A stretch of DNA of 64,000 nt from contig JAJYLP010000007.1 of assembly GCA_021787615.1 (NCBI GenBank), positions 1 through 64,000 on the forward strand, in the 5' to 3' direction. The position numbers were made by a program, and so were the translations under genes. Positions 18,280 to 36,826 of the stretch are shown here, piece after piece. The notes beneath the pieces are model-generated. The model was not told where the DNA came from. It did not search any database and saw only the letters and a program-made list of their open reading frames with translations. The stretch comes from Pseudomonadota bacterium (GTDB lineage: Bacteria > Pseudomonadota > Gammaproteobacteria > Steroidobacterales > Steroidobacteraceae). Position 1 is the first letter of the stretch; the number at the start of each line of letters is the position of its first letter.

Positions 18280-18775
18280 TGGCGACGCTCCTTCAGCCGA
18301 TGAGATTTTCCCGCGAACGCATGTGGTTCGACCGGGGACTGCACCATTGCGAAGCTCGAGATCCGGATCGATCCCGCCGGGATGCATCAAACGGCCGAGG
18401 CGACTGCTCAAGGTTGCTTCCGGATCCCGTGTGAAATCCCGGTGCCCTCACATGTGCGCGGCGTTCCCAGCATTGCAACGACACCCTAACGCATGAAGGC
18501 CGTATATTCAACCGCACTGCCCTGCTCGAAACCGGTCGACGCACAGAGCCTGCAGGCAGCCCCGCTGCGGCGCCGGCGATCAGGGACCACCACCAGCCAC
18601 GATTGACCATAGTCTCGCGTCTCGCGCGACTGACACCACAACGGCAGGCCAGAGGCATCACCTCGCGGGCTCCCGATGCTCGCGTGATTAGGCCTTTACC
18701 ACCGACAATTGTTCCGGTGACGCGGCGTGCCGAGAAATCGCCACACCATTAGCCACAGTGTTCTGTCCGACAGCC

Positions 18776-18826
18776 CGTCAGTATTGGTCCGGGGAGAGAA
18801 GCTCGAACTCCCGACTCTCTGTTGGC
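18776..18826 (-). repeat. Decayed copy of tRNA-Pro 3' half plus flank (candidate att scar, left island boundary)
   Basis: cgtcagtattggtccgggg...tcgaactcccgactctctg; about 40 of 48 positions match cgtaagtattggtcgggg...tcgaactcccgaccctctg at 36741-36790 (counted by eye). Confidence 0.7.
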
Positions 18827-18871
18827 ACAGGGCATTGGGCATGCCGACGTACGCACGACCTGCTTTGACAG

Positions 18872-19081
18872 GTGCGATCCACCGTACGTTTAGACGCAGC
18901 CCTCATGGAACGTGCCTAGCAGGAAGCGGCGCACCGCGGCATCACGCTTACCGCCGTCATCGAGCAGGGGTTTCTCGTTGCGCTGCGCCGCCCCCTGAAA
19001 CACCCGCACCGCGAGTCCGTACCGCTCCCCGAATGCCACGCCGGCGGGGGCGTCTTGGCGGGCGTGGATCTGAACGACCGC
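18872..19081 (+). pseudogene. Dead vapB-like antitoxin copy (in-frame stop)
   Basis: VRSTVRLDAALMERA*QEAAHRGITLTAVIEQGFLVALRRPLKHPHRESVPLPECHAGGGVLAGVDLND aligns end to end with the intact antitoxin at 33920-34165. Confidence 0.85.
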
Positions 19082-19228
19082 GCGCGTCGGCGCCGGGGTT
19101 CCTCGAGCACCACATCAATCCGAATCGCAAGCACGCAAGGCACCCCGAGCGTCGCCCCAGCACGACATTCCTGAAAGAGCGGATGCAATACCGGGATGAA
19201 GGCCGGCGGCCGTGCAACACGAAGTCGT

Positions 19229-20743
19229 TCAGGCGGCCAGAAGCTCTCTGAGCAATGCCAGCAGTTCCTCGGCTTTGACAGGTTTGCTTGTGACTCGCAG
19301 GTGTGGATCGCGCGGCAGCTCCTTGATCGCCGAAGATGTATCTGCAGTGATGAGCACGGCCTTCAAAGAAGCACCCAATCTCTCGCGCAGCGCCGCTACG
19401 ACCTGCGTACCCTTCTCGCCCTCGCCAAGATGATAGTCCGTTACCAAAAGATCCACGCCGACCCCTTGCCGCGCATCCTGTAGCGCCTCCTCGAGCGAGG
19501 AAACCGCGCTTACGCGGTAGCCCTCCACGTTCAATAACATACGTGTCGCCTGTCGCACGGCCGCATCGTCCTCCACCAGGAGGACGCGCGGCCGATCAAT
19601 TCGCGGCCCGGGCGCAGCGGCGCGCTGCGCATCGATGCATAGCGAGGCGGCCTGTGGGACGCCCGATGGCAGCTCGAGACAGAACGCCGATCCTTTGCCG
19701 ACCTCTGAGCGCACGTTGAGCCTGAGATCGAGCAGCTTGACGAGGCGCTGCACGATGCTTAGCCCCAGGCCAAACCCGTCGCGGGCGGTGTTAGTCTCGA
19801 CGCCCACCTGATAGAACTCGTCAAATATGTACCTGAGCTGATCTGCCGGTATCCCCACCCCCGTATCGAGCACTTCGATGCGAACCAGCGCCTGCTCGCG
19901 CAGACAGCGCAATCGCACACAACCCTGCCGTGTGTACTTTATGGCATTCGCAACGAGATTTCTCAAAATCTGTCCCACCAGCGATGGGTCGCTGTGAACG
20001 CAGTCCACGCATTCCTCGGCCTGCAGAGCGAGGCCCTTGCTTTGCGCGAGACTTGCGAACTCGCGATGCAACTCATTAAACACTGCGGCCACGGCAAAGT
20101 CGGCCTGCTCCGGCTTGATTACTCCGGACTCAAGCTTGCTGATGTCGAGCAGCGCATTCAAGAGTCGCGACATCGTTCCGATCGCTTGCTCCTGCTGGTT
20201 GAGCGCATCGGTGGCGTCCGGCCCGGCCAATGTCCGGCGAAGAATGCCATTGAGAAGGGCGAGAGTCTGTACGGGCTGGCGCAAGTCGTGGCTGGCGGTG
20301 GCCAGAAACCGGCTCTTGCCCAAATTCGCACGATCGGCATCTTCTCGCGCCGCCACGATCGCGATTTCCATCCGCTGCCGCTCGGTCACGTCGCGGATGA
20401 CCGCGACGTGACTGCCGTCAGCGTCGCCAATGGGACTCACGCTCATCTCCACTGGAAACTCCGTCCTATCCTCGCGCCGGCCAATCAGATTCACTTCCGC
20501 ACCGATCAACCACACACCAAGCTCGCCCGGGCGCTCCTCTGTGTGTGCGATGTGCCCGCCCGGACAGCACTGCAGAACAAGCTGCCCCATGCTCTTGCCA
20601 ATGACCCTCTCGGGCGAATACCCGAACAGAGCGATGACCTGTCTGTTCGCGAACCGGATTACCCCGAATTCATCGACGAGCATCATCGCATCTGGTGCGG
20701 CATCGAGTGCGCGGTGAGCGAGTTCGGCTGTCGAGTTTGTCAT
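19229..20743 (-). CDS. Hybrid sensor histidine kinase/response regulator (PAS-HisKA-HATPase-REC)
   Basis: PAS (AAPDAMMLVDEFGVIRFANR), H-box (FLATASHDLRQPVQTL), N/G boxes (NLVANAIKYT, GFGLGLSIV), C-terminal REC (VLLVEDDAAVRQATRMLLN...LLVTDYHLGEG). Confidence 0.92.
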   Translation of the reverse strand: MTNSTAELAHRALDAAPDAMMLVDEFGVIRFANRQVIALFGYSPERVIGKSMGQLVLQCCPGGHIAHTEERPGELGVWLIGAEVNLIGRREDRTEFPVEMSVSPIGDADGSHVAVIRDVTERQRMEIAIVAAREDADRANLGKSRFLATASHDLRQPVQTLALLNGILRRTLAGPDATDALNQQEQAIGTMSRLLNALLDISKLESGVIKPEQADFAVAAVFNELHREFASLAQSKGLALQAEECVDCVHSDPSLVGQILRNLVANAIKYTRQGCVRLRCLREQALVRIEVLDTGVGIPADQLRYIFDEFYQVGVETNTARDGFGLGLSIVQRLVKLLDLRLNVRSEVGKGSAFCLELPSGVPQAASLCIDAQRAAAPGPRIDRPRVLLVEDDAAVRQATRMLLNVEGYRVSAVSSLEEALQDARQGVGVDLLVTDYHLGEGEKGTQVVAALRERLGASLKAVLITADTSSAIKELPRDPHLRVTSKPVKAEELLALLRELLAA

Positions 20744-21043
20744 TGTCGTTGTCGTTTAACGATTCGGCTTGCCGCTTTGCCGACCCCTGCGAATTCAGCA
20801 CGAATATCCTAGTGAAGCAGACCTTCGGTGCAGCAGTCTGTACGGGAGCGTACACAAGCGACGCCTACGCAACGCGTGGACACAGACGGCACACGCCGAG
20901 TGCTGCGAAGCTTCAACGGCATCACGACTGGAGCCGGGCGCCGCCTGCGTCGCCGTCGGCCTGGAACGAGATACTTGCCGTCCCATCGCTTCCGCCGTAA
21001 CAAGCGCGCATACTTAGCTGATATTGAACGAGGAAAACAGAAT

Positions 21044-21511
21044 ATGAAGAAATACGCTGCCGGCGTTTGGATTGATCATCGCAAAGCGCTGATGGTTTTT
21101 GTCACCCCCGCCGGCGAAAGCTCGACACACATTCTCTCGAAGGTAGAAAGCCAGCTGCGTCGCTCAGGGGATTCGCCGATGAAGGGGCGCTACGCTGCAG
21201 ATCAGGTGCCAGCGGACGATAGTCGACAGAAGGCGCTCACAGGAGAGCTCAACATCTACTACGATGCAGTTGTCGCGGCGCTTCGTAATGCCGGATCGTT
21301 CGTGATTTTGGGTCCGGGCGAGGCCAAGGGCGAACTGAAGAAACGACTCGTGAAGAGCAAACTCGGGGGACGAATATGCGCCGTCGAGACCGCGGACAAG
21401 ATGTCCGATCGACAGATTGCCGCGAAGGTTCGTGAATATTTCCGCCAGCCCCCGCGGCCGCGCAAAGCCAAGCGACAGGCTGGTCGCCGCCATCCCAGTA
21501 AAGACACCTGA
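21044..21511 (+). CDS. eRF1-domain-like/translational machinery-type protein
   Basis: 155 aa; MKKYAAGVWIDHRKALMVFV...YYDAVVAALRNAGSFVILGPGEAKGELKKRL. Confidence 0.7.
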   Translation: MKKYAAGVWIDHRKALMVFVTPAGESSTHILSKVESQLRRSGDSPMKGRYAADQVPADDSRQKALTGELNIYYDAVVAALRNAGSFVILGPGEAKGELKKRLVKSKLGGRICAVETADKMSDRQIAAKVREYFRQPPRPRKAKRQAGRRHPSKDT

Positions 21512-21983
21512 TGTGCCGAGGTTGGAGCGCTGAGCAACAGGTTGAGCAGCAATAGGCACGTCGGTTCATGAGGAGTGCGACAGTCGGCATTGAATCGCCG
21601 CAGAACGTTTTCCAGGTGCATGGAGCATGCCGAGTGGGGCACGGTCGCCCTCAGGAGACTCTGGTGCGGGTTCGGATGCTTGAGTTCCGCATGATCCTGA
21701 GTGCATATCGCCCGAGAACTGAGCGGATCGGGCGAGCGCGATGGACCTCAGTCGTGCTTGACGATCTTGACGCTGCTGCACACTTGATTACGCGGGCGCT
21801 GGAGCGGCGCAATCGCCTGGTCTGCCGCCGGCCGGTTTGGGGCGGCTCCGCTCAGCGTACGACGGCATTCTTGTTCGTATCGACAAGGGTACGAGGCCGC
21901 ACGCGTCTCGCAAAATGTCGTGGCGGCATTCGGCCGGCACCCGAAGCTGGAACAGCGAGGTGCCGACCAGACCGTCATTGCCA

Positions 21984-22262
21984 CTATGACCCGCCCTTCA
22001 GCGCGTGACGGAATTGCCGCAGGAGGTCGACACCGACCACGGGCACAATCGCGCCGAGTGATGCGAGCGAGGCGCTTACGGTGAAATCTTGCTGCGCAGA
22101 TCCCCTCATGGATCGGACGACGAGCCATTCACTGACCAGTGCACCGGTGGTGCCGATGACAATATTCCGTGTGAGGGAGAAACGCCCATCGGAGCGGCAA
22201 GTCGTCCGGCTGAGCTTCCACCCGATGTATCCACCCAATATGGCGAACAATAGGAGGTTCAT
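21984..22262 (-). CDS. GlsB/YeaQ/YmgE family (transglycosylase-associated) membrane protein
   Basis: MNLLLFAILGGYIGWKLSRT...NIVIGTTGALVSEWL; small hydrophobic Gly-rich protein. Confidence 0.6.
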   Translation of the reverse strand: MNLLLFAILGGYIGWKLSRTTCRSDGRFSLTRNIVIGTTGALVSEWLVVRSMRGSAQQDFTVSASLASLGAIVPVVGVDLLRQFRHALKGGS

Positions 22263-22625
22263 GGTCGAGTTCCTCGGCAGTGCGCCAGTGCAGTGCGCCG
22301 CTCCGACCGCGGGGCGCGTTGGCTCAAGATGCACCATACTGTTGCTGCTTTCAGTGCTCTGGCGTACACAGGCCACCGTGGCCCTTCGAAGGGGACTCCG
22401 GGCATCGCACGCGGTGCAGGCCGCGCGTTCAGGCATGGGCGCAGAGTACTGCGCCCCCGGAGACGCCCGCTCACCCGGCATCCCGCTGTCCATCGATCGC
22501 GGCAGGAGGTTAGTATCCCGGGTATTCCGGCGGGATCAGGTTGGACCCAGCGAGCGCCGGCAGGCCGCCCGGCAGTCGATTCGCGGGGCGCATGGTCAAT
22601 TCGGCCGCAACGGAGGATTAGGGTT

Positions 22626-24038
22626 ATGGCAGAGCAATCGTCGGATGCATTCATCTTTTTCGGCGCGACCGGAGACCTGGCCTTCAAGCAGATATTCCCT
22701 GCGCTGCGGGGCTTGATTCGCGACGAGAAATTCGACGTTCCGATCATCGGCGTGGCGAAGGCTGGCTGGCAACTCGAGCAATTCAGGGCACGCGCCAGGG
22801 ACAGCCTCGATCACCACGGTGGGGTGGATCCGGATACACTGCGCAAACTGCTGGACCTGCTGCGCTATGTGGACGGGGATTATGCGGATCCAGCGACTTT
22901 TTCGCGCCTGCGCCAAGAGCTGGGCGCGGCGCAGCGGCCGTTGCACTACCTCGCCATTCCGCCCACCCTGTTTGCGACGGTGGTCGAAGGGCTGGCCGCG
23001 AGCGGCTGCGCCGCCAACGGACGAGTGGTGGTCGAAAAACCTTTCGGCCATGACTTCGCCTCGGCCGTCGAACTGAACGGAATCCTGCATCGGTGCTTTC
23101 CGGAGGAGGCCATCTTTCGCATCGATCATTACCTCGGCAAGGAACCGGTGCAGAACATTCTGTACACCCGCTTCAGCAATCCCATGTTCGAGCCGATTTG
23201 GAATCGCACCTACGTACGCAGCATCCAGATCACCATGGCCGAACGCATCGGAGTGCAGGACCGCGGCCAGTTCTATGACGCCACCGGCGCGGTGCGCGAC
23301 GTGGTTCAAAACCACCTGCTGCAGGTTCTCGCGATCCTCACCATGGATCCGCCGACGGGCGAGCAATCCGAGGCGGTGCGAGATGAGAAGGTCCGGTTGC
23401 TGAAGGCGGTTCGTCCCATTGCGATCGGGGACACCGTGCGCGGTCAGTATACCGGCTATCGCTCGGTGCCCGGCGTGCGCCCCGACTCGTCAACCGAGAC
23501 CTTCGTCGCTATCCGGCTCTATATCGACACCTGGCGGTGGGCCGATGTGCCGATCTACCTCCGAGCCGGCAAGAAGATGCCGGTCACCGCCACCGAGGTG
23601 TGGGTCGAGTTCGGCAGGCCACCGCGCGAGACTTTCGCAGAACGCGTGAGTCCGGTTTCCAGCCACATGCGCATGCGCATCAGTCCCGACATCGACATCG
23701 GCCTCGGCTTGCGCGTGAAGCAACCGGGCGAGCGCATGGTGGGAAAGGACGTTGAGCTGATTCTTACGCGCAGCGGCGCGGCCAATCTGCCGCCCTATCA
23801 ACGTTTGCTGGGCGATGCGCTGCGCGGCATCGGCCAACTCTTTGCACGCGAGGACTTCGTGGAGGCGCAGTGGCGCGTGGTCGAGCCGATCCTCGGCGAC
23901 GTGGCGCCACTGTATTCATACGAGGCGGACACGTGGGGGCCGCAGGAGGCCGCTCGCCTCATGGGTCCGGAGGGCGACTGGCTGAATCCGGCACCGCCAG
24001 CTCTAGCGCAGGCTCAGGATACTGCAAACGTCCGGTAG
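22626..24038 (+). CDS. zwf: Glucose-6-phosphate 1-dehydrogenase
   Basis: 470 aa; FFGATGDLAFKQIFPAL nucleotide-binding motif and RIDHYLGKEPVQNIL active-site motif. Confidence 0.95.
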   Translation: MAEQSSDAFIFFGATGDLAFKQIFPALRGLIRDEKFDVPIIGVAKAGWQLEQFRARARDSLDHHGGVDPDTLRKLLDLLRYVDGDYADPATFSRLRQELGAAQRPLHYLAIPPTLFATVVEGLAASGCAANGRVVVEKPFGHDFASAVELNGILHRCFPEEAIFRIDHYLGKEPVQNILYTRFSNPMFEPIWNRTYVRSIQITMAERIGVQDRGQFYDATGAVRDVVQNHLLQVLAILTMDPPTGEQSEAVRDEKVRLLKAVRPIAIGDTVRGQYTGYRSVPGVRPDSSTETFVAIRLYIDTWRWADVPIYLRAGKKMPVTATEVWVEFGRPPRETFAERVSPVSSHMRMRISPDIDIGLGLRVKQPGERMVGKDVELILTRSGAANLPPYQRLLGDALRGIGQLFAREDFVEAQWRVVEPILGDVAPLYSYEADTWGPQEAARLMGPEGDWLNPAPPALAQAQDTANVR

Positions 24039-24090
24039 GCCCGCCTGGGGCGGGCGTGGGCGCGCGGATTTCGATTGTGCCCGCGGCTCG

Positions 24091-24819
24091 CTAGCCGCGC
24101 AGCCCGTCAGTCCCGCTGCTGCCGACGCCGGTTCGGAAGACGTAGTCCCAGAACGGGCTCGTCACCCCGTAATATCCCGGCCGCTGGGCCAGTTCGATGA
24201 GCCGCGCGTGATGCAGTCCATGCCAGTGCTTGCGCCGCCCCAGCCAGCCGCCTGCGGCGCCCCAGTGGTGCACCGCGTGGTGCGTAACCGAGTAGGCAAA
24301 ATCGCCGACCACCACTCCGAACGTGAGCGCGCAAGCGGGCCACGGACCCAGGATGAGCCACGCGGGCAGATAGCTCAACGCGGCGATCGAAACGACACTG
24401 GCGAATGTCGGCGCGTAGATCCTCGCCGTTGGCCGTCGGTGATGCTGCGCGTGCCACGTGCTGAACGGCTTCACGCCGTGCAGAACGAACCGATGCACCC
24501 CATATTCCATGAAGGTCCAGCTGGCAAGGCCGAGTGTGGCCCACGCGACATTCTCGATCAAGCGTGCGCGCGGGCTCAAGAGCAACAGAAGCGCCCCGAG
24601 ACCTATGGATGCACCACCGAGGACTGCGAAGTCCGCTCGATAAGCGGCCTTACTGTGCTCCAACGTGAACAATAGCGTACAACTCCTCGATCGGACCGTG
24701 TGAGCATCCCAGCGTCCGCTGGTCGCATTCTTGCTCACTACTATAGCCGCCCGATCGTCCGCACTCTGTGCGCCTGCGCACCGACATCGCCGGGATGCAC
24801 AGGCAGGCTGTGACTCCAC
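24091..24819 (-). CDS. Fatty acid hydroxylase/sterol desaturase family protein
   Basis: His-rich motifs HRFVLHG, HAQHH, HHAVHH, HWHGLHH with TM segments; start uncertain. Confidence 0.8.
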   Translation of the reverse strand: MESQPACASRRCRCAGAQSADDRAAIVVSKNATSGRWDAHTVRSRSCTLLFTLEHSKAAYRADFAVLGGASIGLGALLLLLSPRARLIENVAWATLGLASWTFMEYGVHRFVLHGVKPFSTWHAQHHRRPTARIYAPTFASVVSIAALSYLPAWLILGPWPACALTFGVVVGDFAYSVTHHAVHHWGAAGGWLGRRKHWHGLHHARLIELAQRPGYYGVTSPFWDYVFRTGVGSSGTDGLRG

Positions 24820-24879
24820 TCGACAGATGCGTGCCGCTTCGTGACCCTCACCCGGCTCGCCTCACAGCCGGAGTTCCTC

Positions 24880-25145
24880 ATGCCATCGGTGTCGTGGATC
24901 GTCCTGGGGTCCATTGCCGGCGTCGTCGCCGGCCGAATCGTCAACTCGACCGCAGATGGCATCATGATCGACATTCGTTTGGGATCGTCGGCGCGATCAC
25001 TGACGGGTGGTTAATCCGCTTGTTCGGGATGACACAAGTGACCCGACTCAATTTGCATGGCGCGGGAGGCGCGGACCTCGTGGCTGTGGTGCTCCTCATC
25101 GCCTACCGCACGACGTTTCACCTCCTTCGCCACGGATCCACGTGA
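24880..25145 (+). pseudogene. Frameshifted GlsB/YeaQ/YmgE family gene
   Basis: MPSVSWIVLGSIAGVVAGRIVNSTADGIMIDI continues in another frame as FGIVGAITDGWLIRLFGMTQVTRLNLHGAGG. Confidence 0.65.
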
Positions 25146-25356
25146 TTCACCGGAGGAATCTGATCGCATGGACGCTGCCGGCTGCGTTTGTCTCTTGGGC
25201 GCCTGGTTCGCGCCTGTGATGATATCCGCCAACACCGACGCCCCGGTCCCATATCCGGACATCGAGTCGCAGACTGCGCGCGAGCGAGAGCACCTCGACG
25301 TGTGGGAAATCTGAGGGCGGCGCATCGGTTCCCGTTTCGTCAACCAGGAGACCCTC

Positions 25357-26316
25357 ATGGCGGTCGAACAGGCCCACATTCACATCATACCCAAGCCCTG
25401 GGGCCGCACCGACCTGAGGCCGTGGAACGCCTATCACGACCCACTGGCGGCGATCGGAGAAGTCTGGTTCGAGCGCGCCGATCCCTCGGCACCCGTGCCG
25501 ACCCTGCTGCTGAAGCTGATTTTCACCGACGAGTCGCTCTCGATTCAGGTGCATCCGGATGAGGCGCTCGCGCGCTCAATCGGTCTGGTGCACGGCAAGT
25601 GCGAAGCGTGGTACGTCCTATCCGCCACGGCGGATGCACGCATTGCCGTGGGATTGAAGCAACAGCTGAATCCGGCTCAGTTGCGAGCGTGCATCCGCGA
25701 CGGCACGATCGCCGAACAAGTTCGATGGCGCGCGGTCCGAGCGGGCGACTCCACTTTCGTGCCCCCGGGCACGATACACACCATCGGGGCGGGGCTGGTC
25801 ATTGCCGAGATCCAGCAGAGAACTGACGCGACGTTCCGGCTCTTCGACTACGGCAGGCCGCGGGAGACTCACATCGATATGGCCGTGGCGGCTGCATGCG
25901 CCCGTCAGTCCGAGCAGCACACCTCCCCGCGCAAACTGACCGCGGCAAGAACATTGCTCGCTGCCAGCCCGCATTTCGTGCTCGAGCGCATGACGCTCGC
26001 GCCCGGGGTGGTGCGGGAACTGGACGCCGCAGCGGAAACCTGGCTGTTCATTCTCGCCGGCGCGGGCCAGGTGGATTCGTTCGAGGTCGAAGCGGGCAAT
26101 GCCGTCTTTCTCGACAGCGAGCCCGCCCGCATCGAAGTTGGAGCGAATCGCCTTCAGTGCCTTGTTGCATATGCTCGCTCCGTTCCGGCGCCGTATCTGC
26201 TCCGGCGCATGAACGGCATGCGTGTGCCTGATCCTGCCCGCGGTGCGTCGCGAACGTCTTTGCGAATAGAGGCGGCACCAGTCAGCCGAGCCGTTCCTGC
26301 CGAGGGGGCACCGTGA
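25357..26316 (+). CDS. manA: Mannose-6-phosphate isomerase, class I
   Basis: PKPWGRTDLR, SIQVHPDE, KCEAWYVL, FVPPGTIHTIGAGLVIAEIQQRTDATFRLFDYGR. Confidence 0.9.
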   Translation: MAVEQAHIHIIPKPWGRTDLRPWNAYHDPLAAIGEVWFERADPSAPVPTLLLKLIFTDESLSIQVHPDEALARSIGLVHGKCEAWYVLSATADARIAVGLKQQLNPAQLRACIRDGTIAEQVRWRAVRAGDSTFVPPGTIHTIGAGLVIAEIQQRTDATFRLFDYGRPRETHIDMAVAAACARQSEQHTSPRKLTAARTLLAASPHFVLERMTLAPGVVRELDAAAETWLFILAGAGQVDSFEVEAGNAVFLDSEPARIEVGANRLQCLVAYARSVPAPYLLRRMNGMRVPDPARGASRTSLRIEAAPVSRAVPAEGAP

Positions 26317-28616
26317 GCTCCCCCGGGCGATTCGCGTTGGTTGGTAATTCGCTCCCGCGACGCTGTGGCATCGCCACCTTCACCACCGACTTGCAGCAGT
26401 CCATCGAGAAGTTGCCGCCGCACGAGCGATGCGGAATCGTGGCCATGACCGACGACGGGCGCTCCTACGACTACCCGCCCGCTGTGTGCCTTCAGATCAA
26501 TGATCGACGGTTCGAGGACTACACGGATGCAGCCGATATCCTAAACCGCGCGCGGTGCAAAATCGTGTCGCTGCAGCATGAATTCGGCATCTTCGGTGGC
26601 GAGGCGGGCAGCCACATCACAGCGCTGACCGCGCGGCTGACCATGCCGCTCATCACCACATTCCATACCGTGCTCGAGCGGCCGACGCCGGCGCAGCGGC
26701 GCGTCCTCGGCGAGATTGTCGAGGCTTCCGCGCGAGTCATCGTCATGGCCGAGAAGGGCCGGGAATTGCTGCGTTCCGTATACGAAGTCGCGGCCGGGAA
26801 GATCGTGGTCATTCCGCACGGAACTCCAGACGGCGCGTTCGTCGAGCCCGATGAGGCGAAGTGCGCGCTCGGCTTCGCGGGCCGTCCCGTCATTCTGACT
26901 TTCGGCCTGCTCTCGCCCAGCAAGGGTGTCGAAGTGATGATCGACGCGATGCCCGAAGTCTTGAAGAGCTGCGCTGCGGCGGTATACGTCGTGCTCGGCG
27001 CGACGCATCCGAATCTGCTCCGTGATCAAGGCGAGGCCTATCGGAACAACCTCGTGGCGCGGGTGCGCGAGCTTGGCATCGAGAACCATGTCGTGTTTCT
27101 CGATCGATTCGTCGATCAGGCGACGCTGCTGAAATTCATCTCAATGTGCGATGTCTACGCCACTCCGTATCTCAACGAAGCGCAGCTGACATCGGGAACC
27201 CTGGCCTACAGCTTCGGGCTGGGAAAGGCGGTCGTCTCGACGCCCTACTGGCACGCGCGCGAGCTGTTGAGAGACGGGCGCGGCGTGCTGGTTCCCTTTG
27301 GTGATGTCGCGGCGCTCGGCAGCGAGACTGCGGCATTGCTGAGCGACGGGCCCAGGCGACTCGCAATGCGCCAGCGCGCCTACGCGGAAGGCAGGTCGAC
27401 AATATGGCCGAGAATCGCCGAGCGCTACTGCGCACTGTTCGAGAGTACCGGCGGCAGCGCTCGGTGGCGCCACACTGCGCGCAAGACCCAGGAGCCCCGC
27501 GCAGATCGTCGCGTCTCTCAGGGTGTCCGGGCGGCGCCGATCGGACATTTGCTATCCCTGTGTGATGATACTGGCCTGCTTCAGCATGCGGTGCATTCCG
27601 TTGCGGATCGCTCGCATGGCTATTGCACGGACGACAATGCGCGCGCCCTGCTGCTCGCCTGCGCCGTCGAGCGGGCCGGGGAGTCGCCTCTGCCGGAGAC
27701 CTTGACGAACCGGTTCGCCGCATTCGTGCAGCATGCCTGGAATCCCGCCACCAAGCGCTTTCGCAATTTCATGGGCTTCGATCGGCGCTGGCACGGCGAG
27801 CCGGGGTCCGAGGACAGTCACGGGCGTGCGCTGTGGGCCCTCGGCGAGTGTGCCCGCGCCGGTCGCGGGGAGCCGCGCCGGCGCTGGGCTGCGGCCCTGT
27901 TCGCCGAGGCGCTGCCCATCGTGGAGAACTTTCTCTCGCCGCGCGCCTGGAGTTTCGCGCTGCTCGGCCTGGATGGCTACTGCGCCGCAGTCGCACAGCA
28001 CGCTGATTCCTGGGGCATGCGAGAGCTACTCGCTGACCGATTGCTGGGCCTCATGGAGGCGGTCGAGAGCGCCGATTGGCAGTGGTTCGAGGAAGGGCTC
28101 GCTTATGACAACGCGCGCCTGCCGCAGGCCCTGATCGTGACGGGCTACGCGATCGGGACGCCGCGTCACCTGCGCGCCGGCCTGCGTTCACTGCGCTGGC
28201 TCATGAGCCTGCAGACGACAGCGGCGGGCTGCTTCAGGCCCGTCGGCTCGATGAGCTTCGGCGCCAAGCGAGCGGTCCCGCTCGCCTACGACCAGCAGCC
28301 CTTGGAAGCCGCGGCCTCGATCTCCGCGTGCTTCGCTGCGTGGCGTGCCGACGGTGATGATGCCTGGCTGGCGCACGCAGAGCGGGCCCTCGCATGGTTC
28401 TTCGGCGACAACGATCTGTCTTTGCCGCTGATCGACCTGGACACCGGCAGCTGCCGCGACGGCCTGCATCCGGATCGCCCCAACGAGAACCGGGGGGCCG
28501 AATCCGTCGTCTCGTATCTTCTCAGTCTCGCCGATATGCGCCAGCTCGACCGCTTGAGCACCGCCCGTCCGATCCAACCGCCGCAGCTCACTGCCGACGC
28601 CGATGGCTTCGCGTGA
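26313..28616 (+). CDS. GT4-type glycosyltransferase fused to a C-terminal (alpha/alpha)6 glycosidase-like domain
   Basis: N-terminal LPRRCGIATFTTDLQQSI, QHEFGIFGG, LTFGLLSPSKGVEVMIDA, PYLNEAQLTSGTLAYSFGLGKAVVSTPY; C-terminal HGYCTDDNARALLLA; 4-bp overlaps on both sides. Confidence 0.88.
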   Translation: MSSPGRFALVGNSLPRRCGIATFTTDLQQSIEKLPPHERCGIVAMTDDGRSYDYPPAVCLQINDRRFEDYTDAADILNRARCKIVSLQHEFGIFGGEAGSHITALTARLTMPLITTFHTVLERPTPAQRRVLGEIVEASARVIVMAEKGRELLRSVYEVAAGKIVVIPHGTPDGAFVEPDEAKCALGFAGRPVILTFGLLSPSKGVEVMIDAMPEVLKSCAAAVYVVLGATHPNLLRDQGEAYRNNLVARVRELGIENHVVFLDRFVDQATLLKFISMCDVYATPYLNEAQLTSGTLAYSFGLGKAVVSTPYWHARELLRDGRGVLVPFGDVAALGSETAALLSDGPRRLAMRQRAYAEGRSTIWPRIAERYCALFESTGGSARWRHTARKTQEPRADRRVSQGVRAAPIGHLLSLCDDTGLLQHAVHSVADRSHGYCTDDNARALLLACAVERAGESPLPETLTNRFAAFVQHAWNPATKRFRNFMGFDRRWHGEPGSEDSHGRALWALGECARAGRGEPRRRWAAALFAEALPIVENFLSPRAWSFALLGLDGYCAAVAQHADSWGMRELLADRLLGLMEAVESADWQWFEEGLAYDNARLPQALIVTGYAIGTPRHLRAGLRSLRWLMSLQTTAAGCFRPVGSMSFGAKRAVPLAYDQQPLEAAASISACFAAWRADGDDAWLAHAERALAWFFGDNDLSLPLIDLDTGSCRDGLHPDRPNENRGAESVVSYLLSLADMRQLDRLSTARPIQPPQLTADADGFA

Positions 28617-29938
28617 CCGCCGAGCGATACGGAGATACCTTGTCATCGCCCACGCTAGTGAACCGTCAGGCACTGCACCTGAGTCCCGACCCGACCCGAG
28701 TGGTCATGCGTCACTTCAAGCCGAGCACCGAGCCTCGCAACCTCACCCCGACGGATACGAAGCGGGTGACGCACATTGTCGATCGCGTCCTCGCTCTCGA
28801 TCCCGACACCGCTTTGCGGCAGCTCACGGACGTGTTGGAGAACTTCGAGGGCCGCCACCGGCGGCTGCTCGCGACTTTCGAGACGCGTGCCGACGCCATG
28901 GAAGTCGTTCACTCCGTGCACAGTCCCCTCACGCAGGTGCAACGCCAACTCGTGGGCGCCTACTTCCTGCACGAGTACTCCTTCGAAGCGGCGGCGCTGT
29001 TCAATCCGAGCATCGTCGCGCACCCGGACCAGTCCGGCGTGGCGAGCGGTGCGCGCCGCTTCATACTCAGCCTGCGGGCTGTGGGGGAAGGTCATGTGTC
29101 CTCACTCACATTCCGGTCGGGAATGCTCGCGGCCGATGGCACCGTCACCGTAGACCCCACCGCGCGGCTGGCTTCGATTCCCCATCTGCAGCGGGTAGTC
29201 CCCGGCATGCGCAGCGACTGTATCGAAGTGGTATTCCAGCCCGACGGCGACATCAGCGAGCGCGTCATCTTCCCGGTGACCGCGGCTCAGTCGAACGGCA
29301 TCGAGGATGCCCGGTTCGTCGAGTTCGACGACGGCAGCCGCAAGACTTTCTACGCAACCTACACTGCCTACAACGGCAGGTCGATCCGCTCGGAGCTGCT
29401 CGAGACCACCGATTTCGAGCACTTCAGCATGACGGCCCTGACGGGTGCGGCTGCGCGCAACAAGGGCATGGCCCTCTTCCCGAAAAAGATCAACGGCCAC
29501 TACGCCATGATCGGGCGGCAGGACAACGAGAACCTCTACCTCATCTACTCGGATGACTTGTACTCCTGGGAGGAGGGTGTCGCGCTGCTCGCGCCTCGAT
29601 TCGCCTGGGAATTCGTCCAGATCGGCAATTGCGGATCGCCGATCGAGCTCGAAGAGGGCTGGCTGCTGCTCACTCACGGTGTCGGACCGATGAGACGATA
29701 TTCCATCGGAGCGGCGCTGCTCGACAAAGAGGACCCGGCGAAGGTGCTCGCCCGCTTGCCCGAGCCGCTGCTGCGACCCGAGCGATCGGCCCGCGAGGGC
29801 TACGTCCCGAACGTCGTGTATACTTGCGGCGCCATGCGGCAGGGAGACCGCATCATCCTGCCCTACGCGGTCTGCGACACATTCTCGAATTTCGCGACGA
29901 TCGAGATCGCCAGTCTGATACGTGCGATGGTGCCCTGA
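28613..29938 (+). CDS. Glycoside hydrolase family 130-like protein (mannoside phosphorylase/hydrolase family)
   Basis: FNPSIVAHPD, GIEDARFVEFDDGSRKTFYATYTAYNG, KGMALFPKKINGHYAMIGRQDNENLYLIYSDDLYSWEE; GTG start overlaps the upstream stop. Confidence 0.85.
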   Translation: MTAERYGDTLSSPTLVNRQALHLSPDPTRVVMRHFKPSTEPRNLTPTDTKRVTHIVDRVLALDPDTALRQLTDVLENFEGRHRRLLATFETRADAMEVVHSVHSPLTQVQRQLVGAYFLHEYSFEAAALFNPSIVAHPDQSGVASGARRFILSLRAVGEGHVSSLTFRSGMLAADGTVTVDPTARLASIPHLQRVVPGMRSDCIEVVFQPDGDISERVIFPVTAAQSNGIEDARFVEFDDGSRKTFYATYTAYNGRSIRSELLETTDFEHFSMTALTGAAARNKGMALFPKKINGHYAMIGRQDNENLYLIYSDDLYSWEEGVALLAPRFAWEFVQIGNCGSPIELEEGWLLLTHGVGPMRRYSIGAALLDKEDPAKVLARLPEPLLRPERSAREGYVPNVVYTCGAMRQGDRIILPYAVCDTFSNFATIEIASLIRAMVP

Positions 29939-30059
29939 GCAGACCTGTTTGCCCGATACCTGTCGGCCTCGTGCAGTCTGGCCGTACCGATCACGAGGCG
30001 CACCGCGCGCCAGGGATCCACGCCCCGCGGGCCTGCGCGTGGGGCCCAGGGCCGGCAGC

Positions 30060-30572
30060 AGGCGATCGATCTTGCTCTTGACCACCGCGAGACACTTGCA
30101 GCACAGCTGTTCCAGCCGCGGCCGGTTCAGCACCGTGATGCGGCCGCGGGTATAATGGATGACGCCGATTTTCTGCAGCTTGCCGGCGCCTTCGGTGACG
30201 CCCTCGCGGCGAACACCCAGCATGTTCGCGATGAGCTCCTGGGTCATGGCCAACTGATTGCTGGGCTGCCGGTCGAGAGACAACAGCAGCCAACGACACA
30301 GCGGCTGCTCGACGGAGTGGTGCCGGTTGCAGACTGCAGTCTGAGCCATCTGCATCAGCAGCGCTTGCGTGTAGCGCTGCAGCAGCTGCTGCAGCTCGCC
30401 GTCGCGGTGGAATTCATCCTTGACCTTCTGCCCGATCAACCGGTACGCGTACCCAGCGCTCTGCACGATGGCCCCGGCTCAGAGTGGCCTCACCGCCCAT
30501 GAACAGCGCCACCCCGATCAAGCCCTCGTTGCCCACCACCAAGATCTCCGCCGAGGCACCGTCCTCTCCGAC
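30060..30572 (-). pseudogene. Truncated, frameshifted Crp/Fnr family transcriptional regulator
   Basis: EDGASAEILVVGNEGLIGVALFMGGEATLSR in one frame, then QSAGYAYRLIGQKVKDEF...TQELIANMLGVRREGVTEGAGKLQKIGVIHYTRGRI in another; N-terminus missing, no natural stop. Confidence 0.8.
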
Positions 30573-31743
30573 CGGCTGACCGGCCCGGCGGAGATACTCA
30601 TCGAGAACGACCGCATTAGCGAGATCGCGCCCGCTGTGCACCGGCCATCCGGTGCACAGCTCATCGATCTGCTGGATCGGACTGTGAGCCCGGCTTCATC
30701 GAGACTCATGTTCACCTGACGATGGATGCCGGCAATCTGCCCATGCAGACGCTCGCATCATCCGCGGCCAAGGCGCTCAAGGGATTGAGCACTGCCCGCG
30801 AATACATGCGCTACGGCTTCACCACCTTGCGGGATCTTGGCAGTGCCGATCCCGTTTTCCCGACCGTGGATCTGCGCAACGCGCTTGCCGCCGGCATCGT
30901 CGGAGGTCCGCGGCTCATCGTCGCCGCGCACATCATCAGCGCGTCAGGCGATCACGGCGGCCTGCGCGGATTCTACGGCTCGCGCTGGGCACTGCCGGTC
31001 TCCACAATCGCGGGCGATCCGGGCAGCATCAAAGCACTGGTGCGCCGTGAGCACACTTTCGGCAGCGACTGGATCAAGACCACGAATACCGGAGGTTACT
31101 TCAGCCTCGGCGACGATCCGGCACGGCTCACCTGGTTCGATGAAGAAATGGATGTTCTGGTCGCTACGGCGCGGCAACTGGGAATGTCGGTGGCGGTGCG
31201 CACCGGCGCCGCCGCAGGCGGCCGGCAGGCGATCCGTGCCGGCGCCAGAAGTCTCGAGCGCGCGCATCTAATCGATGCCGAGGCGATTGCAATGGCCGAG
31301 AAGGTCGGCACCTGGGTCGTGCCCACGATGCAAATGGCCCAGGAAGATCTGCACTCACTGCACGCCCACATGCTGGCCTGCCAAGCGGCATGGAAACTCA
31401 GCCGGGACAACGGACAGATCGTCGAATCCCAGCGCCTGATTGCGAAGAGCGAAGTGAAGATGCCTACGGCACCGACTGCGGCATGTTTCCCTTCAGCCAC
31501 GGCGTCGTGGAATTTCAGGCCATGGTGGCGGCAGGCATCCGGCCGGTACGCTCACTCAAGGCCGCAACCAGCGTCGCAGCCGACCTGCTCGGGCGTGGCG
31601 ATATTGGCGCACTCACCGTTGGGAAGTTCGCCGACATTGTCGCCATGCCCGGGGACCCGATAGCCGACATCAGTGTCACGGCGAAAGTGGACTTCGTCAT
31701 GAAGGGCGGCGTCGTGTATTGCGGGCGGGCTCCTATGAGCTGA
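30573..31743 (+). pseudogene. Truncated, frameshifted amidohydrolase
   Basis: SDRLTGPAEILIENDRISEIAPAVHRPSGAQLIDLLDRTVSP, then MRYGFTTLRDLGSADPVFPTVDLRNALAAGIVGGPRLIVAAHIISASGDHG..., then a third frame YGTDCGMFPFSHGVVEFQAMVAAGIRPVRSLKAATSVAADLLGRGDIGALTVGKFADIVAMPGDPI. Confidence 0.85.
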
Positions 31744-31941
31744 ATCCAGGGAAGGGAGAATTACGCACCGGCAGTCCGCCAATGGCAAGGCGATCACACG
31801 CGAGAGCTTGCCAAGCCCGCGACCCTTTGGAAGTACACCGGTGAAAGTACGTCGCGGATCGTAAACGCGCCAGATGCATAAATTCAGACCTGCGGACATA
31901 GCCCGTTCCTGCGGCTGAGATCCGGGGCTTTTTGTCGCCGG

Positions 31942-32046
31942 GGGTGCGAACCAATACCTGTCCGGTTTTTTGGCACGGCAGAGGGCAAGTAGCGGATCTA
32001 TCGAGCTTTTTTGCCATGAGGGTGCGCACCCATACCTGTCCGGTTT
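31942..32046. repeat. 27-bp direct repeat, period 78 bp, upstream of the transposase
   Basis: gggtgcgaaccaatacctgtccggttt (31942) and gggtgcgcacccatacctgtccggttt (32020), 25/27 match by eye. Confidence 0.8.
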
Positions 32047-32058
32047 CCGCTGGCGGGC

Positions 32059-33258
32059 ATGAACAGCCAGCGCGCCCTGGGGCTACCGGCACTAGCCCCG
32101 TCGGACACCGTGGTCATCAATGCGCGGTGCACGGTGCGCACGGAGGGGGATCAACGAGTAGTCGTGGTCGCAGGGCTTCCCGTGTACCACTATTGCGCCG
32201 TCGATGTAGTGGCCGAGGCGTATGCGATGGTGATGTTGGTTGACAGTGGGTTTGCGCAACAGAACGAGGTGGCTCGTGCCTTCGACCGGGCCGAGCGCAC
32301 GGTGCGCCGGCACCAGGAGCGATACGCCGAGGCTGGGATGGTGGGGCTGGGACGCTCGCAGGGATGGCGGCACGGGCGGCGTCGGATTTCCGGTAAGCGG
32401 TTGCGTCTGATCGAGCGACTCAAGAGACAGGGTCTGAGCAACCGAGCGGTGACGCAGCGGCTCGGCGTGAGCGAGAAGGCGATCCGCAAGCTGGTAGGGC
32501 CCTCGCGGGGCGAGGGGCTAGAGCAACTGCCTCTGGTCAGGAGGGCGGGTCTTGTAGTGAGCAAGTTGCCGGCGGCACCGGCGCGGACCGCGTTGAGTGT
32601 CGCGCCGGTGGGAGGCGCTGCCGAGCCTGAGCGGATACGGCCGGCGCAGAACTTATCGCACAACTCCACTACGGTCGAAGGCCACGATGAGGACCCTGAA
32701 CCGGTACCGATGAGTCTCGATCGGGATGCGAGCGATCGAAGCGGCGATCGGCAAATGGCCTACCTCGGCTTGCTCGCGGATGCGATACCGATGTTGCGCG
32801 ACGGAGAGCGTGTTGCCGGCGCCGGGGCGCTGCTGGCCGTACCGTTCTTGGTGCAGAGCGGATTGCTGCGCATTGCGCACAAGCTCTATGGCGGGATCGG
32901 ACCGGCCTTCTACGGATTGCGCACGACGCTGGTGACTTTGTTCTTGATGGCGCTGCTGCGCATCCAGCGACCCCAGCCGCTCAAGGAGCGCGACCCGGCG
33001 GCTCTTGGCAGGCTCCTCGGGCTCGATCGCGCACCGGAAGTCAAGACTCTGCGGCGGGCGCTCAGTCGTCTCGCCGCCCACCACTGCGCCAGACCGCTGG
33101 GCGCTGAGCTGGCCCGTGTACGCGTGGCGCAGCGCGGGGAGCTGATGGGGTTCTTGTACATCGACGGGCATGTTCGGGCCTATCACGGGAAACACACGAT
33201 TTCCCAGACTTTCGTGGCCCGACGCCACTTGGCCATGCCGGCCACCACCGACTACTGA
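32059..33258 (+). mobile_element. Truncated IS transposase (HTH plus partial DDE-like domain)
   Basis: QQNEVARAFDRAERTVRRHQERY, RLKRQGLSNRAVTQRLGVSEKAIRKLV, GFLYIDGHVRAYHGKHTISQTFVARRHLAMPATTDY* ends abruptly; possible out-of-frame remainder to about 33480. Confidence 0.75.
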
Positions 33259-33664
33259 TCGTTGCCGCCCCTTTCCTCTGGCGGTGCCGCAATTGAGGCT
33301 CCATAGCGCCGTTGCCACATCTCGCTCATCGAACCGGACGGGCACGGTGCGTGCATCCGGCTCTCGGACAAGACATCACGCCTTCGCCCACGGAAGGTTG
33401 CAGGTCGCCGCCGACAGCCGGACCAAGCCGAGCTTCTCAAACAGAAGTTCGTCCGGGACGGCCTAGAGTCCACTTCAAGGTCTATCGCCGGCAAATTACG
33501 CTTGGCCTCGAAAGCGACCCGCGCGAGGGGCTCACGGCGCGCGCGCTCCTCCAAGGGCTCATCGTCGACGGGCACATCGTGGTGAGTCCAGGCGAGGATT
33601 GGAGTTTGTGGGCCAGTCATTCGCTGGCTCCGGCTGTCCTGCTGAAGGGTGCAGAAACAGGGTA

Positions 33665-33738
33665 TCGGGGTGAGAGGATTTGAACCTCCGGCATCTGCGT
33701 CCCAAACGCAGCGCTCTACCAGGCTGAGCTACACCCCG
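33665..33738 (-). tRNA. tRNA-Pro (anticodon TGG), no encoded CCA
   Basis: Minus strand CGGGGTG TA GCTC AGCCTGGTA GAGC G CTGCG TTTGGGA CGCAG ATGCC GGAGG TTCAAAT CCTCT CACCCCG A folds as a cloverleaf; followed by TACC. Confidence 0.9.
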
Positions 33739-33849
33739 AGCGAAGAACCGCTGGTAGGAAAAAAACGAGAGACCGCCTCCGCTCCCTGGCTCCTCAACCG
33801 AGGCTACCAGCTATGCCAAGATCTGAACAGAGCCGGCCAGTGCCCATCA

Positions 33850-33879
33850 CGAATTCCCGACCCCCTGCTGCGCCCAAAG
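33850..33879 (-). repeat. Short tRNA-Pro fragment upstream of vapB (candidate nested att scar)
   Basis: cgaattcccgaccccctgctgcgcccaaag versus tRNA cgaactcccgaccctctgct---cccaaag at 36750-36826. Confidence 0.5.
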
Positions 33880-33919
33880 ACATTTGACATACCGACATAC
33901 GCATGACATGCTCTGACAT
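33879..33919 (+). promoter_or_regulatory. Five-box GACAT direct repeat array directly upstream of vapB (putative autoregulatory operator)
   Basis: GACAT tt GACAT acc GACAT acgcat GACAT gctct GACAT|ATG. Confidence 0.65.
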
Positions 33920-34165
33920 ATGAGAACCACCATACGCTTGGATGAAGCGCTCATGGCGCGTGCCCGCCAGGAAGCGGCGCGCCGCGGCATCACGCTCACC
34001 TCGCTCATCGAGCAAGGGCTTCAGCTTGCGCTGCGCCGTCCCCTGAAGCGTCCGAAGCACACTGCCGTATTGCTCCCGGAATGCCACGCCGGGGGCGGTG
34101 TCCTGCCAGGTGTGGATTTGAATGACAGCGCGGGCCTTCTTGAGCGGATGGATGGTCGCGGTTGA
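33920..34165 (+). CDS. vapB: VapB-type ribbon-helix-helix antitoxin
   Basis: MRTTIRLDEALMARARQEAARRGITLTSLIEQGLQLALRRP; overlaps the downstream PIN-domain gene. Confidence 0.88.
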   Translation: MRTTIRLDEALMARARQEAARRGITLTSLIEQGLQLALRRPLKRPKHTAVLLPECHAGGGVLPGVDLNDSAGLLERMDGRG

Positions 34166-34587
34166 TTCTGTGCGACGTCAACGTCCTCATCTACGCCTTT
34201 CGCTCAGATGCCGAAGATCATCCGCGATACAAGGCGTGGCTGGAATCGGTGATCAACGGGCCTGCGGCCTATGGCGTCGCCCCTCAGGTGCTCGCCAGCG
34301 TAGTCCGCATCTGTACCCATCGGCGGATCTTTTCGCGTCCAAGTTCCTTGAACGACGCATTCGATTTTTGTCGCGTCGTCTTCGGACAACCCAACGCCAC
34401 GGTAATTGTGCCCGGTGAGCGCCACTGGTCCATATTCGAGTCCCTGTGCCAGGATTCCCAGTCCACGGGCAACATTGCGCAAGACGCCTGGTTTGCGGCC
34501 CTGGCCATCGAGTCCGGTTGCGAATGGATCACTACGGATCGTGACTACGCGAGATTCAAGGGACTAACTTGGCGACCCGCGTTCTGA
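34162..34587 (+). CDS. vapC: PIN-domain ribonuclease toxin VapC
   Basis: TTG start; (M)ILCDVNVLIYAFRSDAEDH...NIAQDAWFAALAIESGCEWITTDRDYARFKGLTW with conserved PIN acidic residues. Confidence 0.9.
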   Translation: MILCDVNVLIYAFRSDAEDHPRYKAWLESVINGPAAYGVAPQVLASVVRICTHRRIFSRPSSLNDAFDFCRVVFGQPNATVIVPGERHWSIFESLCQDSQSTGNIAQDAWFAALAIESGCEWITTDRDYARFKGLTWRPAF

Positions 34588-34949
34588 TTCAGCACTGTCA
34601 ATCGCGCAGAGGATCGGCCGCGGCCCAACGCATCATCGCAAGACCACTGATTACCAGTGTTCCACTCATCAGTGTATTGTTGCCTTGGGAGCCGGCACAC
34701 GAGTCAGTCCCGTCCGAAGCCTACTACCGGGGCGCCACAGCATCACGCGTTACCCATCGACGGCAGACCAGCTGGCCGCAAAGGCAATTAGCGGCCAGTG
34801 CAGTCGTCTAAGTAGCGAACTCGCACCTCCAATAGCGGACGTCCGACACCGGTCTTGGTGGAGGAGTTGCCTTATCCGCGTCGCTGTTCACCCAACTGCC
34901 TGACTCACGAATGCATCAGCTTTTTTATCGTAGCACTCACCGAGCGCGT

Positions 34950-36170
34950 TCATTGTCGCATGTTCGACGGCAACAGGGTTGGCCGAGTGCAGCTTCTTGC
35001 ACCCTGTGTGCGAAACGGCAGCAGACAACGCAGGTTGCGGATGCGTTGGTTAGTGATCCATGCCTCGACCGTCCTGCCTGGCAGCGCGGGCCTGCGCAAT
35101 GCGGCGAAATGCAGCCACGCCTCACGGTAGAAAAGCCACAGGTGCTGGTCCGCGCGGATCCCCTGCCGGCTGATCGTTCCCCCTGCAACAGGAATCCCAG
35201 GGGGAGGAAATCTCACAGGCGGTCGCTGCCGAAGAGAGGACTCTGCGAGTACGCGATGGAGGATCGCCTCAAGCCGAGCGCCAGCCTGACGGGTCGCATT
35301 GTGGGGCTCCGTCGGCAATTTCTCAGCTTCAAGGATTCGCAGATCTCGCAAGAACATGTCCCAGCTGTGTTCAATATCTTCGATCCAGAAGGCACCGCGC
35401 GCGGTGCCGCTGAGATCCACTTCGTTTCTCGCATGTGCGTTAAAATAATTGGCCGCGGCTCGCTGCAGCGTGGAGAAGGCTGCTCGTTGGGTTGGCGTGT
35501 AACTGGACGTAACGTGTGCGAACGCCTTGTCGCGCTGTGCATCGCGATAGGTGGCCGCAATTCCCGTGCAAATTCCGTCCATGTACCCACTGGTGATGTC
35601 ATCGCAGAATCCGAAGCGCGGCCGCGTGTGTCCTGTCATTGCGGCCAGATCCTTCAAATGGCCAATTCGGCCATTGATCTCTGCCGGGGCGCCGCCGGCT
35701 TCGCAGGCAAACTTCGTCGCGAGCGGCAGGTTGCGCTTCACGCCCAGGCCGTTGGCGTAAATCATCGACAGTATTGCGGAGCCGGCGACAGGGAAGCGAT
35801 TGCCCGCTGCACGCTCAAGGTAGGCGCACTTGCGAGCGCGCACGTAGTTCGGTTTCCCGGTAAACCCGTAGTACAGCGCTTCTGAATTGCACGACATAAG
35901 TCGAGCGGCGTGCGCGATGCTCGGCAAGTCGGCCCGTGGGATCGGAAGGGCCGCGCTGCGCAAGCACGTCTGCTGCACCCGTTTGCTGGCGTGGGTGAAA
36001 TTCCAGTCCGTTTTGGGGTTGTACCTGGGGAGCCAGGCTCTTGCGGCTCGCGCCACGAACCAGGCGGGAGATCCCTTCTGCGGAACGCCGGGGGTCGCGG
36101 CGCATGGCAACGTGCCTGCGAGTGAGAGAATTAACGTAAATGCCAGGCGAATCTGAGTGGTTATCGTCAT
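34950..36170 (-). CDS. Secreted Sel1-repeat plus LprI/DUF1311-like protein
   Basis: Signal peptide; SAILSMIYANGLGVKRNLPLATKFACEAGGAPAEINGRIGHL; FCDDITSGYMDGIC; C-terminal TISRQGIRADQHLWLFYREAWLHFA. Confidence 0.65.
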   Translation of the reverse strand: MTITTQIRLAFTLILSLAGTLPCAATPGVPQKGSPAWFVARAARAWLPRYNPKTDWNFTHASKRVQQTCLRSAALPIPRADLPSIAHAARLMSCNSEALYYGFTGKPNYVRARKCAYLERAAGNRFPVAGSAILSMIYANGLGVKRNLPLATKFACEAGGAPAEINGRIGHLKDLAAMTGHTRPRFGFCDDITSGYMDGICTGIAATYRDAQRDKAFAHVTSSYTPTQRAAFSTLQRAAANYFNAHARNEVDLSGTARGAFWIEDIEHSWDMFLRDLRILEAEKLPTEPHNATRQAGARLEAILHRVLAESSLRQRPPVRFPPPGIPVAGGTISRQGIRADQHLWLFYREAWLHFAALRRPALPGRTVEAWITNQRIRNLRCLLPFRTQGARSCTRPTLLPSNMRQ

Positions 36171-36703
36171 GATTCTCTTGTCAGATCCAAATCTTCTTGA
36201 TTCGATCTATCGTTGCTCGCCGATCGTACCTGAGGAGTGCCAATACGATGGCGACATGACTTCGAAGTTTGGCGTCTTCCCCGACGGCGGATCCCACATA
36301 ATAGCACTAGACGGCGCAATTTCTGTGGGGTGCTTCACTGAGTTGCACAAGCTCATACGGCATCCTCAGCGCTGCGATCTTGTTGCGTGCATTGCCGGCA
36401 CTCGCGGATATCACGAAGCACGCGATCGAGACCAGAATTCAGGGTGCAGGCAATGCGCCAACCCCAGGACGGCGTCCCTGAAGCGGACGTAGGAATGTCC
36501 GCTGCAGCTTTCCTACGCTGATGCCGACGCGCGCCCCGAACGTCTCAAAAAAGGTCGGAAGCTGCCCTCCGCAGTGATTGGCCGAATCCGGCGATCGCTC
36601 TCGATGGGAGCAAAATTCAAGCGGACCGCCGATCAGCTTCTGTCTCTTCCCACCCCCGGCACCCGGGCCGCTCAGACAGCCTTATAGGGCTTCCTCTGAA
36701 GCC

Positions 36704-36724
36704 GTACAAAACCCTGTACAAAAC
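36704..36724. repeat. Pair of gtacaaaac direct repeats next to tRNA-Pro
   Basis: GTACAAAAC at 36704-36712 and 36716-36724. Confidence 0.7.
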
Positions 36725-36749
36725 ATCCCATAAGACCACTCGTAAGTAT

Positions 36750-36826
36750 TGGTCGGGGCAGGGAGATTCGAACTCCCGACCCTCTGCTCCCAAAGCAGAT
36801 GCGCTACCAGACTGCGCCATGCCCCG
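36750..36826 (-). tRNA. tRNA-Pro (anticodon TGG), CCA encoded
   Basis: Minus strand CGGGGCATGGCGCAGTCTGGTAGCGCATCTGCTTTGGGAGCAGAGGGTCGGGAGTTCGAATCTCCCTGCCCCGACCA. Confidence 0.96.

Follow-up and report, generated by a model that had tools for sequence, protein, structure and literature searches.

Within the 64,000-nucleotide stretch of DNA analysed (the window), three open reading frames follow one another on the + strand: 25357-26316 (319 aa), 26313-28616 (767 aa) and a third that ends at 29938. Together with their profile and fold matches, they bear out the three-gene set of the original prediction, namely a mannose-6-phosphate isomerase (PMI), a protein joining a GT4-type domain to an (alpha/alpha)6 domain, and a GH130 member. 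The features of the locus and its upstream neighbours are as follows:

22626..24038, + strand: glucose-6-phosphate dehydrogenase (G6PDH), which accompanies the triad in several sister species
24091..24819, - strand: protein of the fatty acid hydroxylase family, located between the G6PDH and PMI genes, its position kept in sister species
25357..26316, + strand: predicted PMI/ManA-like class I mannose-6-phosphate isomerase, 319 aa (1qwr match, TIGR00218, motifs)
26313..27470, + strand: GT4-like GT-B half of the 767-aa fusion, approximately residues 1-386 (Pfam, AF2, Foldseek)
27522..28565, + strand: (alpha/alpha)6 half of the fusion, approximately residues 404-751, no named family (AF2, conservation)
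28640..29938, + strand: GH130 of the long clade, 432 aa, with the start corrected to TTG 28640 (Pfam, AF2, sister-genome comparison)

Both gene junctions had been described as 4-bp overlaps. The first was confirmed: the PMI and fusion genes share GTGA at 26313-26316, with a Shine-Dalgarno-like stretch (GAGGGGG) upstream. The second, placed at 28613-28616, did not hold. In the sister genome G030, whose GH130 is 95% identical to that of the window, an in-frame TAA follows the equivalent GTG, which speaks against a GH130 start at GTG 28613. A TTG located 27 nt past this GTG (window 28640) and preceded by GGAGA is retained in G030, and rhizobial GH130 homologues begin at the equivalent position, several likewise with TTG. 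Because G030 has a stop behind the GTG but keeps the TTG, the GH130 gene most likely spans 28640-29938 (432 aa) and starts 23 nt past the fusion stop, GTG 28613 being probably unused. The GH130 residue numbers used below (E231, D232, K284, R302, Q336, H355) count from GTG 28613. A simple hydropathy check detected neither secretion signals nor membrane spans in the three proteins. No sigma-70 promoter was found by scanning, an uninformative result. Since the proteins are conserved and the gene order recurs across phyla, the triad is not a product of chance.

The surrounding DNA (18000-38000) has a G+C content of 0.60-0.66, lower than the 0.69-0.72 of the right-hand flank, and looks like an accessory region. 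Two tRNA-Pro(TGG) genes, at 33664-33739 and 36750-36826, enclose a vapBC-like pair (33920-34587) and remnants of transposases. A Transposase_29-family ORF at 32059-33258 is probably truncated, because its match (6-178 of 562) covers just the first third of the profile, and an amidohydrolase-family ORF at 30722-31663 (profile match 39-213 of 345) is possibly a remnant. Further upstream, 16510-18411 on the - strand encodes a protein of 633 aa that has beta-propeller-like repeats and whose second-position G+C (0.59) is unusually high.

The first protein of the triad is predicted to be a class I mannose-6-phosphate isomerase. Among solved structures, it matched the 319-aa mannose-6-phosphate isomerase 1qwr best (E 8e-20), and it scored 46.7 bits against TIGR00218 (NCBIfam), under the curated cut-off of 116.2. 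It contains QVHPD, GKCE and HTIG, which we take to be the usual PMI metal-site motifs.

The two-domain make-up proposed for the second protein was supported by Pfam and by structure prediction. In an AF2 model built from a 67-sequence alignment (mean pLDDT 90), a GT-B domain is joined to an (alpha/alpha)6 domain of 12 helices, the relative placement of the halves being uncertain given a pTM of 0.57. The GT half matched the Pfam GT4 models PF13692 (60.8 bits) and PF00534 (53.7 bits) and, among GT4 matches in Foldseek, folds like GlgM, PimB' and MshA. The arginine of GRxxxxKG is replaced by Leu199 in 67/67 fusion sequences, while Lys204 is retained in all of them, and the EX7E positions are occupied by Gln291 (67/67, with slight alignment ambiguity at this first position) and Tyr299 (62/67). 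Thus, the fusion clade has neither the complete donor-phosphate Arg/Lys pair nor the EX7E motif of GT4 enzymes. In some longer cassettes, a separate GT4 gene retains canonical donor motifs. GT4 is a family of retaining glycosyltransferases; with GDP-alpha-mannose as donor, the GT half would accordingly create an alpha-bond. Its stereochemistry therefore rules out the direct synthesis of beta-1,2-mannan by this domain, a role that the original prediction had left to it, and the replacement of the donor arginine and both EX7E glutamates makes GDP-mannose itself no more than a candidate donor of the fusion.

No named Pfam or NCBIfam family was found for the C-terminal half in a scan of 32 members, which returned isolated weak matches only; an identity as AGE epimerase was discarded, with weak matches in just 2/32. 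Its sole solved relative is YPO2471 (PDB 7TEM; E 4e-14, TM-score 0.67 to the target), with which it has the DDxARA and NxGAEST motifs in common. However, YPO2471 is annotated as a putative exported protein and lacks a fused GT domain; no paper mentioning it was found in the literature searched. As judged from secondary structure, 52 of the 65 residues conserved in at least 65 of the 67 sequences are positioned in loops and helix starts of one face (a zone of 177 out of 347 residues; p 1e-7), and two in the loops of the opposite face. This conserved face is acidic (D418, D440, D441, D501, E593, D660, E665, D716, E730), resembles an active site and is probably a second, catalytic site.

The third protein, encoded by the one GH130 gene of the window genome, matched the GH130 profile PF04041 with 120.5 bits (cut-off 26). 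Its AF2 model is a five-bladed beta-propeller (pLDDT 89), for which the top Foldseek matches were all GH130. By both profile and fold, it is nearest to beta-1,2-oligomannan and mannobiose phosphorylases, the best matches being the beta-1,2-mannoside phosphorylases Teth514_1788, Teth514_1789 and Lin0857. The Leishmania structure 2b4w ranked below all 35 GH130 chains in Foldseek (E 2e-6, compared with 7e-22 for GH130 phosphorylases), and membership of GT108, the mannogen family, was rejected on this ranking. The catalytic aspartate D232, which the alignment places on the GxEDxR motif of characterised enzymes, is present in 53/53 sequences, as are E231 and K284, which match the beta-1,2 enzymes. 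Beta-1,2 specificity has been ascribed to a lysine (Lys199 of BT3780) and a glutamate beside the catalytic aspartate (PMC4599007); the K284 column was matched to BT3780 Lys199 via the Teth514 enzymes, not by direct alignment. At the columns of E231-D232 and K284, the beta-1,4 enzyme TM1225 (PMC8950772) carries Tyr-Asp and Arg.

In a tree where characterised enzymes were entered as partial sequences (HMMER-aligned parts), the window clade is separate from all of them, on its own long branch, and its N-terminal helical region is absent from the characterised enzymes compared. Positions R302, 336 and H355 presumably belong to the phosphate site, an assignment based on alignment and on other GH130 structures. 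R302 and H355 are invariant in the 53 sequences; position 336 is Gln in the window and in 41/53 and Lys in 12/53, with Lys or Arg in the phosphorylases compared. This long clade may already appear in a published GH130 network study (cited in PMC8950772).

A scan of a genome collection with the fusion retrieved at least 581 relatives, in Alphaproteobacteria, Verrucomicrobiota, Acidobacteriota, Planctomycetota, Bacteroidota, Chloroflexota, Cyanobacteria, a Lokiarchaeota MAG and others, of which 80, spread over many phyla, were retained. Among 77 testable loci, which represent more than ten phyla, GH130 adjoins the fusion in 70 (long GH130 downstream in 63, short downstream in 6, upstream in 1; median gap 35 bp). 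The remaining seven (L036, L058, L067, L071, L082, L090, L097) have a fusion gene with no adjacent GH130. As this set had been selected by similarity to the fusion, an independent even sample of 249 Pseudomonadota genomes was drawn, in which long GH130 was defined by the presence of both the N-terminal region and the propeller. Here, 14 genomes contained long GH130 and 15 the fusion, and the two genes were side by side in 14/14 (p ~5e-22 by a simple hypergeometric count that ignores genome relatedness). In one of these genomes (G306), they are adjacent but on opposite strands; in the fifteenth fusion genome, the fusion lies at a contig start. Two of the pair-bearing genomes hold extra long-GH130 copies without a full fusion. 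The fusion and GH130 are hence a conserved module and, with the recurrence of the PMI-first triad in Rhizobiales, Acetobacteraceae and sister species of the window, this survey of genomic context upheld the view that the genes belong together.

The composition of the module varies. PMI lies upstream of the fusion in 14/70 loci, mainly in Rhizobiales and relatives, and is missing from most non-alphaproteobacterial loci; it is an add-on to the module in Alphaproteobacteria and the window's genus. In six loci, a different GH130 clade with complete basic residues occupies the slot of the long GH130 beside the fusion, which suggests that the same chemistry is wanted there; in a Desulfatitalea MAG locus (L094), a short GH130 from outside the long clade stands exactly in this slot. 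Some loci of Acidobacteriota, Verrucomicrobiota and Ilyobacter have the separate GT4 gene in addition, several with a second short GH130. In one relative (L112, genome G042), a ManC-like gene and a separate GT4 occur together with two long and one short GH130 within 10 kb, and another (L114, genome G007) has a second, divergent cassette. The pair is plasmid-borne in sphingomonads and rhizobia, and on two rhizobial plasmids that are unrelated to each other hxsABC genes (His-Xaa-Ser radical-SAM) lie at a distance of a few kb from it (L017, 17347-21281; L118, 12606-15938). Of 60 genomes searched, 13 held GH130 relatives; most of them belong to the window's genus, within which the module is patchy.

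On pBAR3 of S. bisphenolicum, groES, groEL, ManC, PMI, fusion, GH130 and phosphomannomutase genes stand in a row, an order that links the module with GDP-mannose as well as Man-1-P. On other sphingomonad plasmids, the cassette is preceded by a gene annotated as guanylyltransferase/PMI, with DnaK, GrpE, DnaJ, USP, Dps or Hsp20 genes nearby, and the R. daejeonense cassette adds an AGE-family epimerase. In the window, neither a guanylyltransferase nor a phosphomannomutase gene was found beside the triad, and the full GMP-PMI gene of this genome is on another contig, so describing the pathway as self-contained was too strong. Neither a recurrent transporter nor a recurrent extracellular mannanase gene was found beside the fusion-GH130 pair. 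G6PDH and the fatty acid hydroxylase accompany the PMI triad in several sister species, and G6PDH may possibly be linked to it functionally. In two sphingomonad loci (L071, L116), transketolase and transaldolase/phosphoglucose isomerase genes come after the fusion gene, and genes for G6PDH or 6-phosphogluconate dehydrogenase are close by; in the window, G6PDH is just upstream of the triad.

Our main reading is that the locus may encode a cytosolic mannose cassette for intracellular beta-mannoside synthesis and turnover, making and recycling a mannose-containing oligosaccharide or glycoconjugate; we put its probability at about 0.45. Counted for this reading were the adjacency of fusion and GH130 in both sets of genomes, the GDP-mannose genes on pBAR3 and the PMI genes beside the pair, the relationship of GH130 to beta-1,2 phosphorylases with its shared E231, D232 and K284, the replacement of the long GH130 by a clade with all basic residues, the cytosolic look of the proteins with no recurrent transporter, and the conserved face of the (alpha/alpha)6 half; the replaced donor residues of the GT4 half, the glutamine at position 336, the loci without PMI and the seven fusion genes without GH130 were counted against it. 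Sequence and structure models show the order of the genes, their domains, their joint conservation and the mannose-pathway setting, whereas the following scheme is inferred as regards donor, linkage and acceptor, the direction of the reaction and any part played in storage or stress. PMI would pull fructose-6-P into mannose-6-P, which would be converted to Man-1-P and GDP-mannose by enzymes encoded elsewhere or, in some species, beside the cassette. The likeliest course from there has two steps: the fusion would make or edit an endogenous acceptor, with the GT4-like half forming an alpha-bond and the (alpha/alpha)6 half serving as a second site, and GH130 would then reversibly add or recover beta-mannose, most likely 1,2-linked, using Man-1-P and phosphate. 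Such reversibility would allow the product to grow and, at a later time, to be converted back into Man-1-P at no cost in ATP. An internal substrate appears likelier than imported mannan, because neither a secretion signal nor a membrane span showed up in the hydropathy check and the loci lack a recurrent transporter. The mannose polymer originally envisaged is thus sustained in part: the link to mannose is strong (pBAR3) and GH130 is nearest to beta-1,2 phosphorylases, but a beta-mannan is only partly supported, since a retaining GT4 cannot itself form the beta-bond. A bolder version, in which the cassette would be a so far undescribed, phylum-spanning bacterial and archaeal counterpart of mannogen, i.e. 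a cytosolic beta-1,2-mannoside store or protectant made and recycled via Man-1-P, with a bifunctional enzyme of a new type that combines a GT4-like site of non-canonical donor pocket with an unnamed catalytic (alpha/alpha)6 domain, seems doubtful to us.

Other readings of the same genes were weighed. The replacements L199, Q291 and Y299, the fact that the closest GT4 folds span users of ADP-glucose (GlgM), UDP-GlcNAc (MshA) and GDP-mannose (PimB', PimA), and the pentose-phosphate instead of mannose genes near some loci would all suit a fusion that is not a mannosyltransferase, works with another donor (e.g. UDP- or ADP-glucose, or a sugar 1-phosphate) and leaves GH130 to add or trim a mannose cap; nevertheless, PMI, ManC and phosphomannomutase genes recur beside the fusion, and we consider this unlikely. 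Salvage, in which GH130 would phosphorolyse imported beta-mannosides to Man-1-P for conversion to GDP-mannose and glycosyl transfer by the fusion, has a precedent in the Thermoanaerobacter Teth514_1788/1789 cluster, where a GH130 pair accompanied by GT4 and mannose-1-P guanylyltransferase genes was read in this way (PMC4264767), and it is to these enzymes that the window GH130 is nearest. That cluster, however, includes an ABC transporter and a GH5, whereas no such transporter or extracellular mannanase gene recurs here; moreover, all three proteins look cytosolic by hydropathy, and salvage alone leaves the strict GH130-fusion pairing unexplained, which makes it rather unlikely.

The long GH130 clade might also have ceased to be a phosphorylase and become a hydrolase or a GT108-like nucleotide-sugar-dependent beta-mannosyltransferase. 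Its long branch, its additional N-terminal region and the prevalence of Gln at a position that is basic in the phosphorylases compared point in this direction, but R302 and H355 are invariant, Lys336 persists in some members, the GH130 clade replacing the long type beside the fusion has the basic residue, and 2b4w is a far weaker fold match than the GH130 phosphorylases. We regard this alternative as quite unlikely.

Should the product of the cassette prove to be a mannose store or protectant, a common route of carbohydrate metabolism would have been overlooked until now, and GH130 genes taken as a sign of external mannan degradation (Ca. Nitrosocosmicus) may partly mark internal glycan metabolism. 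Directly assayable parts of the cassette are its GH130 clade, the GT4-like enzyme whose donor site is altered and the (alpha/alpha)6 domain that lacks a family name. In the literature searched, which misses most subscription papers, no description of the fusion-GH130 module was found, and searches on GH130 with GT4 operons, stress regulation and sphingomonads did not yield the cassette; the view of the system as under-described fits these results.

The nearest described arrangement is that of Thermoanaerobacter, where GH130 lies beside GT4 and a gene for GDP-mannose synthesis and where the best fold match to the window GH130 is found. It differs in that its two GH130s are short, its GT4 stands alone and an ABC transporter and a GH5 belong to the cluster, with no mention of a GT4-(alpha/alpha)6 fusion (PMC4264767), while the window GH130 forms a separate clade with an N-terminal helical region. 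The fusion shares the GT-B fold, the GT4 profile and Lys204 with PimA/PimB', MshA and GlgM and is set apart from them by Leu199 for Arg, Gln291/Tyr299 for EX7E and the extra (alpha/alpha)6 domain. In the mannogen cycle of Leishmania, a GT108 enzyme with a five-bladed propeller both builds beta-1,2-mannan and recycles it via Man-1-P (PMC8950772). The window cassette would work alike, with a beta-1,2-mannan turned over via Man-1-P; in contrast, its GH130 is closer to bacterial GH130 phosphorylases than to 2b4w, and a GT4 fusion is not among the mannogen enzymes as described (PMC8950772).
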